The position numbers and the translations under genes were made by a program. This document shows, piece after piece, positions 32,708 to 39,905 of a stretch of DNA of 64,000 bases. Numbering within the stretch: the first letter of the stretch is position 1; every line of letters starts with the position of its first letter. Source of the DNA: a virus; IMG/VR virus record IMGVR_UViG_3300008111_001025, positions 1 through 64,000 of that record; one strand, 5' to 3'. Below the pieces are notes generated by a model. That model was not told where the DNA came from and made no database searches. It saw nothing but the letters and a program-made list of their open reading frames with translations.

Positions 32708-33721
32708 TTACTTGCCGCCAATGATTGATTTCTTATTGGCTGCTGTGTCACCGGAGCCTTTCTTCTCTGCGCCGTGACCTTTTGCTACACCACTCATTTT
32801 AGTGGCGCTCTTTGAACCAGGAACGTTTACATTGCCAGCATTGTCTTCTTTAGGTGAACCACCTTTGAAAACGCCATTGCCTTTTAGTTGACCTTTGTTA
32901 GCTTCAACACCTTGCTCTGTTCCAGCTTGGTTCAAGTTAGATGCGGTACCGCCCATATCATTTTTGTTAGCAACTACGGACTTTGTGTTTGCTCCGTTGT
33001 CACCCATTTTACCAAATTGATTGTATGTTTGGCCGCCTACTTTTTCGACATATTCACGCATTTCTTCTGCGGCGGATTTTTTCATATCCTTTTTCTTGTC
33101 GTCTTTTTTATCTTTTTTAGCTTCGAAAGCATAAGATTCTTTTTCTTCTTCGTCGTCGGACTCTTCGCCTTCTTCGTCGTCGGAACCTTCTTCGTCACCG
33201 CCCATGTCATCCATGTCGCCGTGCTCTTCTTCACCTTCTTCACCAGACATCATTTTTTCAAATTCAGCCTTTAGTTCGTCTAGTGCGTCTTCTAGATCAA
33301 CTACACGATCTTCAATACCGCCACCTTCTTCGTCACTGCCCATGTCATCCATGCCCATGTCGCCGCCGTCTACTTCAACGTCACCCATCATGTTGTCAGC
33401 TGGATCACCGCCCATCGCCATTGGGTCAGCTTCTACTTCAAATTCGTCTAAGTTGAAATCTTCGTCAACTTTTTTATCTTCGTCATCAGACTCATCAACT
33501 TCTTCGTCGGAAGCTTCATCAACTTCTTCGTCATCTGACTCATCAACTTCTTCATCAGAAGCTTCGTCTACATCTTTATCTTCTAGATCATCTTCTAAAA
33601 GTGCTTCGTAAATTTCACGTGATTTTTCAACCACGATTTCATGGAAAAGCTCTTCAGCACCTGCTTTATCTTCATTGATAAGGCGCTCAAGCATTTCTTC
33701 AAACTTTTTGCGATCTGCCAT
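32708..33721 (-). CDS. gp67: Acidic prohead core protein, gp67-like
   Basis: 337 aa from the ATG at 33721 (MADRKKFEEML), which has AGGAG in place. The N-terminal ~45 residues are helical (LINEDKAGAEELFHEIVVEK, then IYEALLED), like the start of T4 gp67. They are followed by a very acidic Asp/Glu/Met/Gly tract to ~215, a Lys-rich patch, and a Gly/Asn/Ser-rich tail. Much longer than T4 gp67 (about 80 aa). Position between the portal and protease genes supports a prohead core role. Assignment rests on position, acidity and N-terminal resemblance. Confidence 0.72.
   Translation of the reverse strand: MADRKKFEEMLERLINEDKAGAEELFHEIVVEKSREIYEALLEDDLEDKDVDEASDEEVDESDDEEVDEASDEEVDESDDEDKKVDEDFNLDEFEVEADPMAMGGDPADNMMGDVEVDGGDMGMDDMGSDEEGGGIEDRVVDLEDALDELKAEFEKMMSGEEGEEEHGDMDDMGGDEEGSDDEEGEESDDEEEKESYAFEAKKDKKDDKKKDMKKSAAEEMREYVEKVGGQTYNQFGKMGDNGANTKSVVANKNDMGGTASNLNQAGTEQGVEANKGQLKGNGVFKGGSPKEDNAGNVNVPGSKSATKMSGVAKGHGAEKKGSGDTAANKKSIIGGK
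33470..33585 (-). repeat. Tandem acidic repeat in the gp67-like gene
   Basis: Two copies of a 16-residue (48-bp) unit EASDEEVDESDDEEVD, each made of two 8-residue halves. Low-complexity GAN codons; likely replication slippage. Such repeats may vary in number between relatives. Confidence 0.75.
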
Positions 33722-36561: not shown

Positions 36562-38775
36562 TTAACCTAATCCTCTCATAACATCACCGCTCATACCTCT
36601 AATGCCTTTAAGTTGTTTCTGTTGAATTTCTAACTGCTGACCTGCTGTTTGGGCAAGTTGTTCCATTGGCCCTTTAATTGAGCTTGCTACATCTTCAATT
36701 GGCTTTTTAATTTCGCTCATTGCAGATCTAAATGATTGCGTTAGTTCACTCATATCCATACCTTTTGCCGAAGCATTTGAAACCATTTGCCTAGAAGTAT
36801 TCTGCATAGTATTTAACATACCGTTAAGTGTTTGTACGTTATTTGCGGCTAATGTTTCCATAATTGGCGTTACATTGCTTGCAACATCATTTGATAATGT
36901 TCCTACATTAAATATGTCGCTTACTGCTTGTAAAGCGCCAAGAGCACTATTTCGCATAATGCTAGCAGTCTGTTCTGGTGTTTGCACAGATTCAATACCA
37001 TGCAATAACATGTTAGACTGTTTACCAAAATTTTCAAATAGTCTACCAGTTTTACCTAGTGACCCTGTTTCGCGTCCTGGGTCATTTTGAGTTCCCCTTC
37101 TGTCAGGCGGTATTGATCTTTCATTTACTGGTCCGTTTACTACTACGGTTCCTGTTGCATTTACGTTTACATTTTCCCATGTTAAACTCATTGCTTCTTT
37201 TATTTTAGATGCTAAATCTTCAATTAATTTTGTACGCTCACTTTCTGGCGACTCTTTAATTTGAGTAACTAATTTATTAATTTCTGCAGCAAGTTCTGGG
37301 TTATTAGCTTGGATAGCATTTCTAACTGCTGCACTTGAGTTAGCTACTACCGCTGCCATATCAGATCCACCTATTCCTAAAGTAGATCTAACAGTAGATA
37401 ATATATTGTCAACTTCATTTTTGACATTAAGTTGTGTTCTTAAGTAATTTGCAAAATCGTCTGCACTTTTTCCAAGAGTACTATATAGTCCGCTAATTTG
37501 TTTTTGTGCTTCTAACGCCATCCCACTTGCAATACCCTGCAATTTTAATAAGGCTTCAACAGCTGATCGACCTTCGTCTTCAACTTCTTTACCTGTCTTA
37601 GGATCTATTGTTTTAGGTCCTTTCATTATTTCTTCTTGCTTTTTCTTAACTCTATCTAAGAACTCAGCACCTGCTAGATCAACATTTTTTCCTTCAGCTT
37701 TAAACTGATCTTGAACTTGGCGAATGGCTTCTGCTAATCCAAAAGCTCCTTCACCAAATACTCTACTGTACAATTCTGTAATATTAGAATCAACTCTGCC
37801 GCCTAATTTAGCTAGTTCTCGCATAGTAGTTGACTGTTGTTCTGCTGCCGCAGTACTTAGAGCTGCTGCAAGGGCTGCTTCGCGCTCTGCATCTGTTCCA
37901 TTCTTTAAAACTCTTTCGTATTCTTCAAATGCTTTTACAGTTTTAGGCATCATAGCAACCAGCGGAGCAACATCTTTTCCTGGAAACTTTCTAATTACCA
38001 TATCTTCAAACAACTGCTGCATAGCAGGACCCATAGTTTTAAATAATTGAGAACCTTCAAGGAAAGATTTTCTTGATTTAGTATCTAACTCAGTTAGATA
38101 TGCTGCTACGTCACCCTGACGCATTTTTGCTTCTATCTCTTTTTGTAACTGTTGTGTTTGCTTACCAGTTAATTTAGATAGTTTGTCAAGATTTTTAGTG
38201 AACTCCATTGCAGATGCATTTCGTTCTTCTTCTGTTTGTTGTTGGCCTTTGCGTCTATAATTTTCTATAGCATCGTATTGTAAGAAACTTTCGTTAATAT
38301 CTTTAGTTGTTAGACCTAATCGCTGTAATTGTAGAGAAGTTTCAGTGGATTGGCCCTCTAATGTAAAAAAGAACTTGCGCTGCATGTCCAAGAATCTTGA
38401 AGCACCATCAGACACTCCTACTAGGCCATCGCCAAATGTTAAAAGGAAATCAGTATTGCTGCTTATCAGCGATGCCATTTCATCAAGTTTTAATCTAGCA
38501 CCTGCGGCAGATTCGTTCATCTTGCCAATACTCATACCAAAATCTACACCAAATCTTGAAAACCCTTGCAGTGTACCTAAGCCACCTTCAAGATATTTTA
38601 CAACTGAATTAAGTGCTCCTAGACCAGAAGTAAGATCAGATAATTGAGGATTAGTATCTAGTAGACCGCCAGCAAATCCTTTAAGACCCGCAGTAGCTTT
38701 GCGTACAGTGCCCGTAAACACATTACCTGCACCGGTAGCTACTTTATCTGAGACGGTTTTGTCATTTTCAGCCAA
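36562..38775 (-). CDS. Tape-measure protein candidate, 737 aa
   Basis: Start TTG at 38775 with AGGAG seven bases ahead (MAENDKTVSDKVATG). Long, almost wholly helical, Ala/Gln/Lys/Glu-rich, with repeated Leu-spaced heptads (for example 180-290 and 395-560) and Gly-rich hydrophobic helices near the N-terminus (ADLTSGLGAL-like, VKYLEGGLGTLQGF). No enzyme motif. Size, composition and position suggest the tail-length ruler; 737 residues at ~1.5 A each would give ~110 nm, near T4 tail length. It lies back to back with gene 26, which carries the chaperone-type frameshift. T4 gp29 is the known ruler; homology to gp29 is not visible by eye, so the call is inference. Confidence 0.6.
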   Translation of the reverse strand: MAENDKTVSDKVATGAGNVFTGTVRKATAGLKGFAGGLLDTNPQLSDLTSGLGALNSVVKYLEGGLGTLQGFSRFGVDFGMSIGKMNESAAGARLKLDEMASLISSNTDFLLTFGDGLVGVSDGASRFLDMQRKFFFTLEGQSTETSLQLQRLGLTTKDINESFLQYDAIENYRRKGQQQTEEERNASAMEFTKNLDKLSKLTGKQTQQLQKEIEAKMRQGDVAAYLTELDTKSRKSFLEGSQLFKTMGPAMQQLFEDMVIRKFPGKDVAPLVAMMPKTVKAFEEYERVLKNGTDAEREAALAAALSTAAAEQQSTTMRELAKLGGRVDSNITELYSRVFGEGAFGLAEAIRQVQDQFKAEGKNVDLAGAEFLDRVKKKQEEIMKGPKTIDPKTGKEVEDEGRSAVEALLKLQGIASGMALEAQKQISGLYSTLGKSADDFANYLRTQLNVKNEVDNILSTVRSTLGIGGSDMAAVVANSSAAVRNAIQANNPELAAEINKLVTQIKESPESERTKLIEDLASKIKEAMSLTWENVNVNATGTVVVNGPVNERSIPPDRRGTQNDPGRETGSLGKTGRLFENFGKQSNMLLHGIESVQTPEQTASIMRNSALGALQAVSDIFNVGTLSNDVASNVTPIMETLAANNVQTLNGMLNTMQNTSRQMVSNASAKGMDMSELTQSFRSAMSEIKKPIEDVASSIKGPMEQLAQTAGQQLEIQQKQLKGIRGMSGDVMRGLG

Positions 38776-38847: not shown

Positions 38848-39684
38848 ATGGAAAACTATTCAAGTCCTCTTCAGAAGTATAAGAGGGAACCAAAATTGTT
38901 AATTGACTTACCCAGTAAGGGAAGTTTTTACCCTCGCAACGCACTAGAAAAGGCAACTGAACTTGAAGTGTACAGTATGACAGCCAGCGATGAAATGCGA
39001 TTAAAAACTCCTGATGCACTTTATACAGGCAATGCTGTTGTTAATACAATTCAACGTTGTATACCCGGTATCAAGGACGCATGGGCCATGCCTGTAATTG
39101 ATGTTGACTATGTGTTAGCTGCCATTAGATTGGCAACTTACGGTGAAAATATCACTATAAATTCAAAATGTCCTGAGTGTAGTAACGAAGATGCGTACGG
39201 TATTCCAATTCAATCTATACTTGATCACTACAATTCAGTTAACTTTATAAACGAATTTAGAATTAACAATTTTATTTTTAGAATACGTCCGTTAAACTAT
39301 AGAGAATTAACTGACATACAACAAAAAAGTTTTACTATTCAGCGACAACTTAATCAATACGTGTCACAAATAGACGACCAAGAAAAACAACAAGCTGAGG
39401 TTAATAGATTATTTGACGACATTAACTCTATTACTATCAACACTATACAAAAAGTTGTTGTTGAAATAACTACGCCTGACGGTGACAAAGAAATGCATCA
39501 TCAGTTTATAGTTGACTTTTTAGAAAACGGCGAAAAAGAGTATTTTGAAGAAACTAAAAAAGTTTACGAAACTAACTTAGAGAATTGGAACATTAAGCCT
39601 AGTAGTGTTGCGTGTAGTGCCTGTAGTCACGAATATAAAATATTACCAAACTTAGACTATTCAAGTTTTTTCGGTCGAGGCTAA
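38848..39684 (+). CDS. gp26: Baseplate hub/tail assembly protein gp26
   Basis: 278 aa. Resembles the T4 base-plate protein gp26 family of marine phages: YKREPKLLIDLPSKGSFYP near the N-terminus, EVYSMTASDEMRLKTPDAL, CIPGIKDAW, IRLATYGE, then FRIRPLNYRELTDIQQ. Two Cys pairs (C108/C111 in KCPECS and C256/C259 in ACSACS) look like one zinc site. In T4, gp26 is needed for hub assembly. The last codons contain the slippery T TTT TTC, so part of the product should continue in the -1 frame into the next ORF. Own late promoter upstream, divergent from the tape-measure candidate. Confidence 0.85.
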   Translation: MENYSSPLQKYKREPKLLIDLPSKGSFYPRNALEKATELEVYSMTASDEMRLKTPDALYTGNAVVNTIQRCIPGIKDAWAMPVIDVDYVLAAIRLATYGENITINSKCPECSNEDAYGIPIQSILDHYNSVNFINEFRINNFIFRIRPLNYRELTDIQQKSFTIQRQLNQYVSQIDDQEKQQAEVNRLFDDINSITINTIQKVVVEITTPDGDKEMHHQFIVDFLENGEKEYFEETKKVYETNLENWNIKPSSVACSACSHEYKILPNLDYSSFFGRG

Positions 39685-39719
39685 TTGAGACTCCGGACTC
39701 TGCATTACCTCAATTAGCC
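39666..39719 (+). promoter_or_regulatory. Programmed -1 ribosomal frameshift signal
   Basis: Slippery heptamer T TTT TTC at 39666-39672 in the gene 26 reading frame (X XXY YYZ form). Spacer GGTCGA (39673-39678). Perfect 11-bp stem GGCTAATTGAG (39679-39689) with CTCAATTAGCC (39709-39719), loop of 19 nt. The gene 26 stop lies inside the stem's 5' arm. The -1 frame is open through the region and continues for 73 codons. Every part of a canonical -1 site is present. Confidence 0.85.
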
Positions 39720-39905
39720 AAAGAATACGAAAACGAAATTAAACAACTCAAGCACAACATCTATAAAATTTGTTGGTTCATGCGAGGCGGAGTTGCATCA
39801 GATGTATTATTCACTGACACAGATATGGATGACTTAATGATTCTTCATACTGTAATTGAAGAAAATATAGAGACTGCTAAAAAGACAGGAATGCCGTTAA
39901 TCTAA
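39684..39905 (+). CDS. gp26 -1 frame extension (GT-type tail chaperone domain)
   Basis: 73 codons in the -1 frame relative to gene 26, open from within gene 26 to TAA at 39903-39905. The head of the frame has no ATG, GTG or TTG; the first ATG is internal (after KICWF). The sequence looks like real protein: SALPQLAKEYENEIKQLK, HNIYKICWFMRGGVASDV, then an acidic helical end and MPLI. If read by frameshifting, the fusion would be ~352 aa (275 from gene 26 plus 77). Small helical domains appended this way are the T part of lambda G/GT. An ATT start at 39684 is the alternative. It overlaps the convergent membrane-protein gene by 9 bases. Confidence 0.75.
   Translation: METPDSALPQLAKEYENEIKQLKHNIYKICWFMRGGVASDVLFTDTDMDDLMILHTVIEENIETAKKTGMPLI

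Follow-up and report, generated by a model that had tools for sequence, protein, structure and literature searches.

A predicted −1 frameshift at the end of a gp26-family gene and its probable tail assembly chaperone-like fusion product in a T4-related phage

Results and discussion

The gp26 locus

We analysed a 64,000-nucleotide stretch of DNA (the window) which forms part of an IMG/VR virus record of 145,344 bases (IMGVR_UViG_3300008111_001025). The record carries genes of T4 type for the portal, SbcC/SbcD-like nuclease subunits, a late sigma factor, a hub subunit with tail lysozyme and a baseplate wedge. The following features lie at the locus:

38848–39684, + strand: gp26-family gene of 278 aa, predicted short tail assembly chaperone (TAC-N), matching PF12322 and phrog_150
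39666–39672, + strand: slippery heptamer T_TTT_TTC in the zero-frame X XXY YYZ register, of the canonical −1 type
39673–39678, + strand: spacer GGTCGA of 6 nt, read directly
39679–39719, + strand: predicted 3′ stimulatory hairpin of 11 bp (arms 39679–39689 and 39709–39719), from folding and covariation
39672–39905, + strand: −1 frame extension domain (TAC-C), 77 aa and stop, without a start codon at its head
36562–38775, − strand: divergent neighbour of 737 aa, candidate tape measure protein, from its position and annotated relatives

The gp26-family gene scored well above the cut-off of the Pfam T4_baseplate profile (PF12322; E 6.2e-14, 52.6 bits, cut-off 24.5) and matched phrog_150, baseplate hub, in PHROGs (E 5.6e-15). 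Its zero-frame 3′ end reads AGT TTT TTC GGT CGA GGC TAA, the stop codon (39682–39684) lying within the 5′ arm of the hairpin. The −1 frame runs uninterrupted from 39639 up to a stop at 39903–39905 and provides 77 codons after the slip, 73 of them beyond the gp26 stop; the earliest ATG in it is residue 37 of 77, just past the first long helix (residues 9–36), and no GTG or TTG precedes residue 37. A fusion of the two frames is predicted to have 275 + 77 = 352 aa. The original prediction had described a T TTT TTC heptamer, a 6-nt spacer and a perfect 11-bp stem, all of which are read directly in the sequence, and its hidden 73-codon domain, start-less ORF head and fusion of ~352 aa agree with the counts given here.

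Conservation of the heptamer and of the −1 frame

The heptamer played no part in the search for relatives, which used the gp26 sequence, and ten isolates were added; from the resulting 210 loci, two in which gp26 runs off the contig (L032 and L145) were dropped, leaving 208. The heptamer counts are given without L003–L008, which are copies of L018–L023, and without L098–L108, which were found via the −1 domain itself. A non-redundant set of 136 members was drawn at <90% gp26 identity, excluding those with a gp26 under 200 aa or a −1 ORF running off the contig; its non-redundancy is imperfect, as partial copies pass (for example, L080 equals L036 over the region shown).

Alignment of the gene 26 3′ ends, the check put forward with the original prediction, bore it out: a slippery heptamer was found in 207 of 208 relatives, an open −1 ORF in 136 of 136 members (70–80 codons post-slip) and a significant stem in 85 of 136. 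As in TAC genes, a conserved in-frame X XXY YYZ heptamer lies near the 3′ end, being exact TTTTTTC within the last 45 gp26 codons in 204 relatives and the equally slippery TTTTTTT in three (XacN1, CM1 and L208). In a single metagenomic copy (L081, left out of the 207-entry set) an apparent upstream indel, perhaps an assembly or sequencing error, shifts the heptamer out of frame at the gp26 end. The codon preceding Phe-Phe ends in T in all 136 members, with eight different amino acids (90 Asn, 20 Ser, 16 Asp, 4 Ala, 3 His, 1 Arg, 1 Tyr and 1 Thr), and elsewhere in their gp26 genes phenylalanine is encoded by TTT 1237 times and by TTC 358 times. From codon usage alone, and assuming independent lineages, the heptamer would have a log10 P of about −133, a figure which shows direction only because the lineages are not independent.

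The region beyond the gp26 stop was compared in 270 equal-length pairs sharing 60–92% identity. Median pN/pS was 0.325 in the −1 frame, the two remaining frames giving 1.18 and 1.73, and pN was below pS in the −1 frame of every one of the 270 pairs. Substitution patterns of this kind mark the −1 frame as coding and under purifying selection; a conserved coding −1 ORF overlapping the stop, another feature of TAC genes, is therefore present.

The downstream hairpin

In the window, the arms GGCTAATTGAG (39679–39689) and CTCAATTAGCC (39709–39719) form 11 perfect pairs around a 19-nt loop. Folding of the RNA from 39673 to 39740 gave −15.5 kcal/mol (z −2.49), a value which 3 of 200 shuffles equalled or bettered. 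Across the family, we searched for perfect stems beginning 3–10 nt past the heptamer, with 60 dinucleotide shuffles per member, and the 85 members mentioned above had stems at p ≤ 0.05, where ~7 would be expected. The stem began 6 nt after the heptamer in 39 of these and 5 nt after it in 26, and the arms vary by clade (GGCTAATTGAG, GGCTAACGAG, AGGATCTTAAC, GGCTTTTGA, GGCTCTTTGT and others), with 3′ arms placed differently. A stem significant by the same test was absent from 51 of 136 members, including nine of ten RaK2-type members; these may use another structure or none.

Covariation was assessed in the window's own clade, in an alignment without gaps of 25 rows (23 distinct) out of 27 selected by TAC-C length and ending, the outgroups L220 and L216 being omitted. 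Nine of the 11 pairs were changed on both sides, with 42 two-sided cells and 77.5% pairing, compared with at most 18 cells and 38% pairing in a slid-partner control; this count leans towards the hairpin because it was the sequence of the window that supplied the structure. In 12 of the 23 rows the two innermost pairs do not hold, and RNAalifold keeps only six of the pairs for this clade, at a weak consensus energy of −1.57 kcal/mol. A downstream stimulatory RNA structure, as expected of a TAC gene, is thus predicted for the window and its clade, and family-wide for 85 of 136 members. We discounted a transcription terminator as the explanation of the hairpin, which sits within the coding −1 frame and has no run of T after it; across the window's clade its pairing also stays at the same distance from the heptamer.

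Models and matches of the two protein regions

The TAC-C alignment was built from each of the 126 non-isolate members, the ten isolates being left aside, and the gp26 alignment comprised 68 of 125 references. The AlphaFold2 model of TAC-C (pLDDT 94.7) has helices at residues 9–36, 43–48 and 52–72, and the 126-member alignment yields a consensus motif WYMRGG. The gp26 model reached a pLDDT of 93.4, with the last five residues (274–278), beside the slip site, under 50.

Searches of Pfam and PHROGs with the −1 domain of the window gave nothing significant. Across the 126 TAC-C members, Pfam returned five families (XPA_C, Styelin, DUF6760, MbeD_MobD and DUF4202) with one or two members each and a best E of 0.00061. 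PHROGs matched eight families: phrog_18291, which has no assigned function, was found in 7 of 126 members (E 1.7e-36) and is the RaK2-type ORF previously called as a gene, and the other seven were matched by one member each, including phrog_634, ‘baseplate hub assembly catalyst’ (E 0.0055).

Foldseek searches of the PDB with the TAC-C and gp26 models returned no match at E ≤ 0.001, known TAC folds included. VIA-align gave a best Z of 3.0 for TAC-C and of 8.0 for gp26, the latter over 55 residues of a helix pair, which we take to be a common arrangement. Matches in BFVD were to uncharacterised phage proteins, with probabilities of up to 0.99 and a best E of 0.22.

The divergent neighbour

A reverse-strand ORF of >100 aa lies beside gp26 in 131 of 136 loci. 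Matches to the 737-aa neighbour of the window, counting the window's own copy, were found in 85 of these 131 by a single BLASTP search and in 121 by an iterative HMM; the ten unmatched by the HMM include Atu_ph07, XacN1, CM1 and Vibrio 2.275, and a tblastn search with the neighbour in the named phages gave no match at E ≤ 1e-5. The neighbour diverges fast, yet keeps its position beside gp26. The relative in RaK2 carries an annotation of similarity to a tail tape measure protein and the one in PA5oct that of a structural protein, supported by ESI-MS/MS, and the PHROGs label for the RaK2-type neighbour is only ‘virion structural protein’. On position and annotation, the 737-aa protein would presumably be the tape measure, the client of the chaperone.

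Proposed interpretation as a frameshifted chaperone gene

We consider that a programmed −1 frameshift fuses gp26 to the 77-aa extension, with a probability of about 0.93 on the comparative sequence evidence. The comparison reveals a conserved signal, a −1 frame that bears the marks of coding and a predicted hairpin conserved in much of the family; from these we infer that slippage occurs, and with some efficiency. The majority of ribosomes would terminate at the TAA within the hairpin and release gp26 alone (278 aa, TAC-N). Some, held up by the hairpin while Phe-tRNAs occupy TTT TTC, would have both tRNAPhe re-pair one base back on TTT TTT and would read on into the extension, giving the ~352-aa fusion (TAC-NC) with a predicted helical domain of 77 aa at its C-terminus. 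As with lambda G/GT, both forms would bind the tape measure protein during tail assembly; such binding by gp26 and the fusion is probable on that analogy. The best reading of the comparative evidence is that gp26 and the fusion would form a TAC-N/TAC-NC chaperone pair of the G/GT type, and to this extent the original prediction, that gp26 is the chaperone and the fusion its GT form, stands; its further suggestion, that gp26 is thereby recast, is unsupported.

Part of the group may make the extension in two ways, fused by slippage and free by reinitiation. One of ATG, GTG or TTG falls within −1 codons −5 to +11 in 54 of 136 members, and in 27 it is ATG; separate translation is therefore possible in those 27. 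ATG is the second codon post-slip in 13 of 136; Atu_ph07 and Phosso are among these, and in both the ATG shares bases with the gp26 stop (ATGA) and heptamer and stem are retained; in the Phosso record the extension is annotated as its own CDS. Both T_TTT_TTC and a −1 ORF are present in Vibrio phage Bakedbeans. We regard this dual production as unlikely; were it true, free TAC-C would be a third chaperone species, and the arrangement found in the distant Pseudomonas phage Cygsa01 would be the end point of a drift from frameshift to separate genes, towards the T4 layout. In Cygsa01 (L112, 1072–1982), a small −1 gene overlaps the gp26 stop by TAATG and the heptamer is imperfect or unclear, possibly reflecting a change from frameshifting to coupled translation.

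It is distinctly improbable, and already contained in the odds that we give to the frameshift, that slippage takes place and yields a fusion which serves as a structural part of the hub or baseplate rather than as a tape-measure chaperone. The databases do name the family baseplate hub, and neither model resembled a known chaperone structure; against this, two forms related by a −1 frameshift beside a candidate tape measure gene fit TACs, and T4-like TAC genes have, by its title, been identified in print (Vladimirov et al. 2022).

Still less credible is a −1 ORF that stands alone as a small gene, reached by translational coupling or by reinitiation past the gp26 stop, and is never fused. The ATGA overlaps of Atu_ph07 and Phosso and the Phosso CDS annotation would fit such a gene, as would Cygsa01 with its TAATG overlap and no clear heptamer; 82 of 136 members, the window among them, lack all three start codons (ATG, GTG and TTG) between −1 codons −5 and +11, however, and ordinary initiation at the ORF head therefore cannot make the domain there. 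In the window itself, we set separate initiation aside because the first −1 ATG, at residue 37 of 77, comes just past helix 9–36. Moreover, the heptamer is retained even where an ATG is present: relatives with an ATG and no heptamer, which the original prediction had named as counter-evidence, are represented by one distant phage, Cygsa01, in which no clear heptamer is seen, and Atu_ph07 and Phosso keep both heptamer and stem.

Of the 42 ORFs in the window that reach 100 aa, antisense ones counted, 5 have an in-frame heptamer within their last 12 codons, and three of these 5 also have a −1 ORF of at least 60 codons beyond the stop: the gp26 gene, the antisense ORF 32888–33274, and 740–1594 (− strand), whose downstream gene has its own overlapping ATG. 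That the gp26 signal is likewise a chance T run ahead of a stop with a spurious open frame, as the TTTTTTC and 60-codon −1 frame ending the antisense ORF might suggest, has a negligible chance and is refuted by the comparative data, namely the heptamer in nearly all relatives, the purifying selection and the hairpin covariation.

Prior reports and annotation

The original prediction held that no −1 frameshift had been described for the gene 26 family. That does not stand: the phage Adele paper (PMC12846349), in the passage concerned, cites Vladimirov et al. 2022 for the polyT signals for −1 frameshifting that T4-like phages carry in their TAC-N genes. The idea that the frameshift recasts gp26 is likewise unsupported, the title of Vladimirov, Gautam and Davidson 2022 stating that T4-like tail assembly chaperone genes were identified. 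A passage of the PRFect paper paraphrases the same study as finding separate short and long genes in some T4-like phages, and mentions a conservation study of −1 frameshifted tail assembly chaperones by Xu et al. Our literature search, which covered few subscription journals, found in the text it reached no account of a frameshift in RaK2-like or Atu_ph07-like phages, and the Atu_ph07 paper contains no word starting with ‘frameshift’. On the parts of this literature cited here, frameshifting in T4 relatives is already known, and the window is a further, well supported case and no new kind of system.

The findings correct annotation: the RaK2 and PA5oct records have no entry for the putative TAC-C of the long chaperone, and those of Atu_ph07, CBB and Munch enter it as a short hypothetical protein. 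The 136-member set, with a nearly frozen heptamer and a hairpin whose sequence and spacing vary by clade, is also useful for studies of frameshift signals.

Comparison with T4-like phages and lambda

T4 differs from the window in its layout: genes 26 and 51 are separate and on opposite strands in T4, where the window has one gene and a −1 extension. There is no TTTTTTC at the end of T4 gp26, and the gp26 ends of phiAS4 and Serratia phage 4S are likewise without the heptamer. T4-type gp26 is nevertheless related to our gp26 alignment (P 5.3e-4, probability 31%). Three of the four cyanophages examined (S-RIM8, S-CAM8 and DSL-LC02) resemble the window, with TTTTTTC and a −1 ORF at the gp26 end, and part of the −1 ORF of S-RIM8 is annotated ‘hub assembly catalyst’. 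The checks on T4, phiAS4, 4S and the cyanophages agree in part with the abstract of the 2022 study, in which frameshifting is reportedly kept in several T4-like groups and T4 itself is said to use genes 26 and 51. In Synechococcus phage S-SCSM1 (L110, gp26 end at 2187), TTTTTTC is present and the gp51-like frame is −2/+1, the −1 frame closing two codons past the gp26 stop; a −2 slip would account for this frame, as would an indel introduced in sequencing.

The C-terminal end of T4 gp51 (gene 51 at L109, 6480–7229) resembles the cyanophage −1 domain (P 8.3e-7, probability 91.6%), a likeness which is consistent with gp51 as a hard-wired long form. Window-type TAC-C compared more weakly with the gp51 C-terminus than the cyanophage domain did (P 2.8e-4, probability 41%, over 34 columns) and had no direct match to cyanophage TAC-C (P 0.029, probability 1.7%); gp26 versus T4 gp51 was weak (P 0.0071, probability 5.4%), and hhalign of three TAC-C sequences against the single T4 gp51 was uninformative. 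The comparison bears on how T4 acquired separate genes 26 and 51.

In phage lambda, G and GT are the short and long forms of the tail assembly chaperone, which arise when ribosomes slip by −1 shortly before the short gene ends. The locus described here differs from lambda G/GT and other TACs in two respects: our searches matched it to no solved TAC in sequence or in fold, and its gp26 gene and the candidate tape measure gene are divergent. The likeness to lambda G/GT lies in the predicted pair of a short and a long form, with the slip near the end of the short gene.
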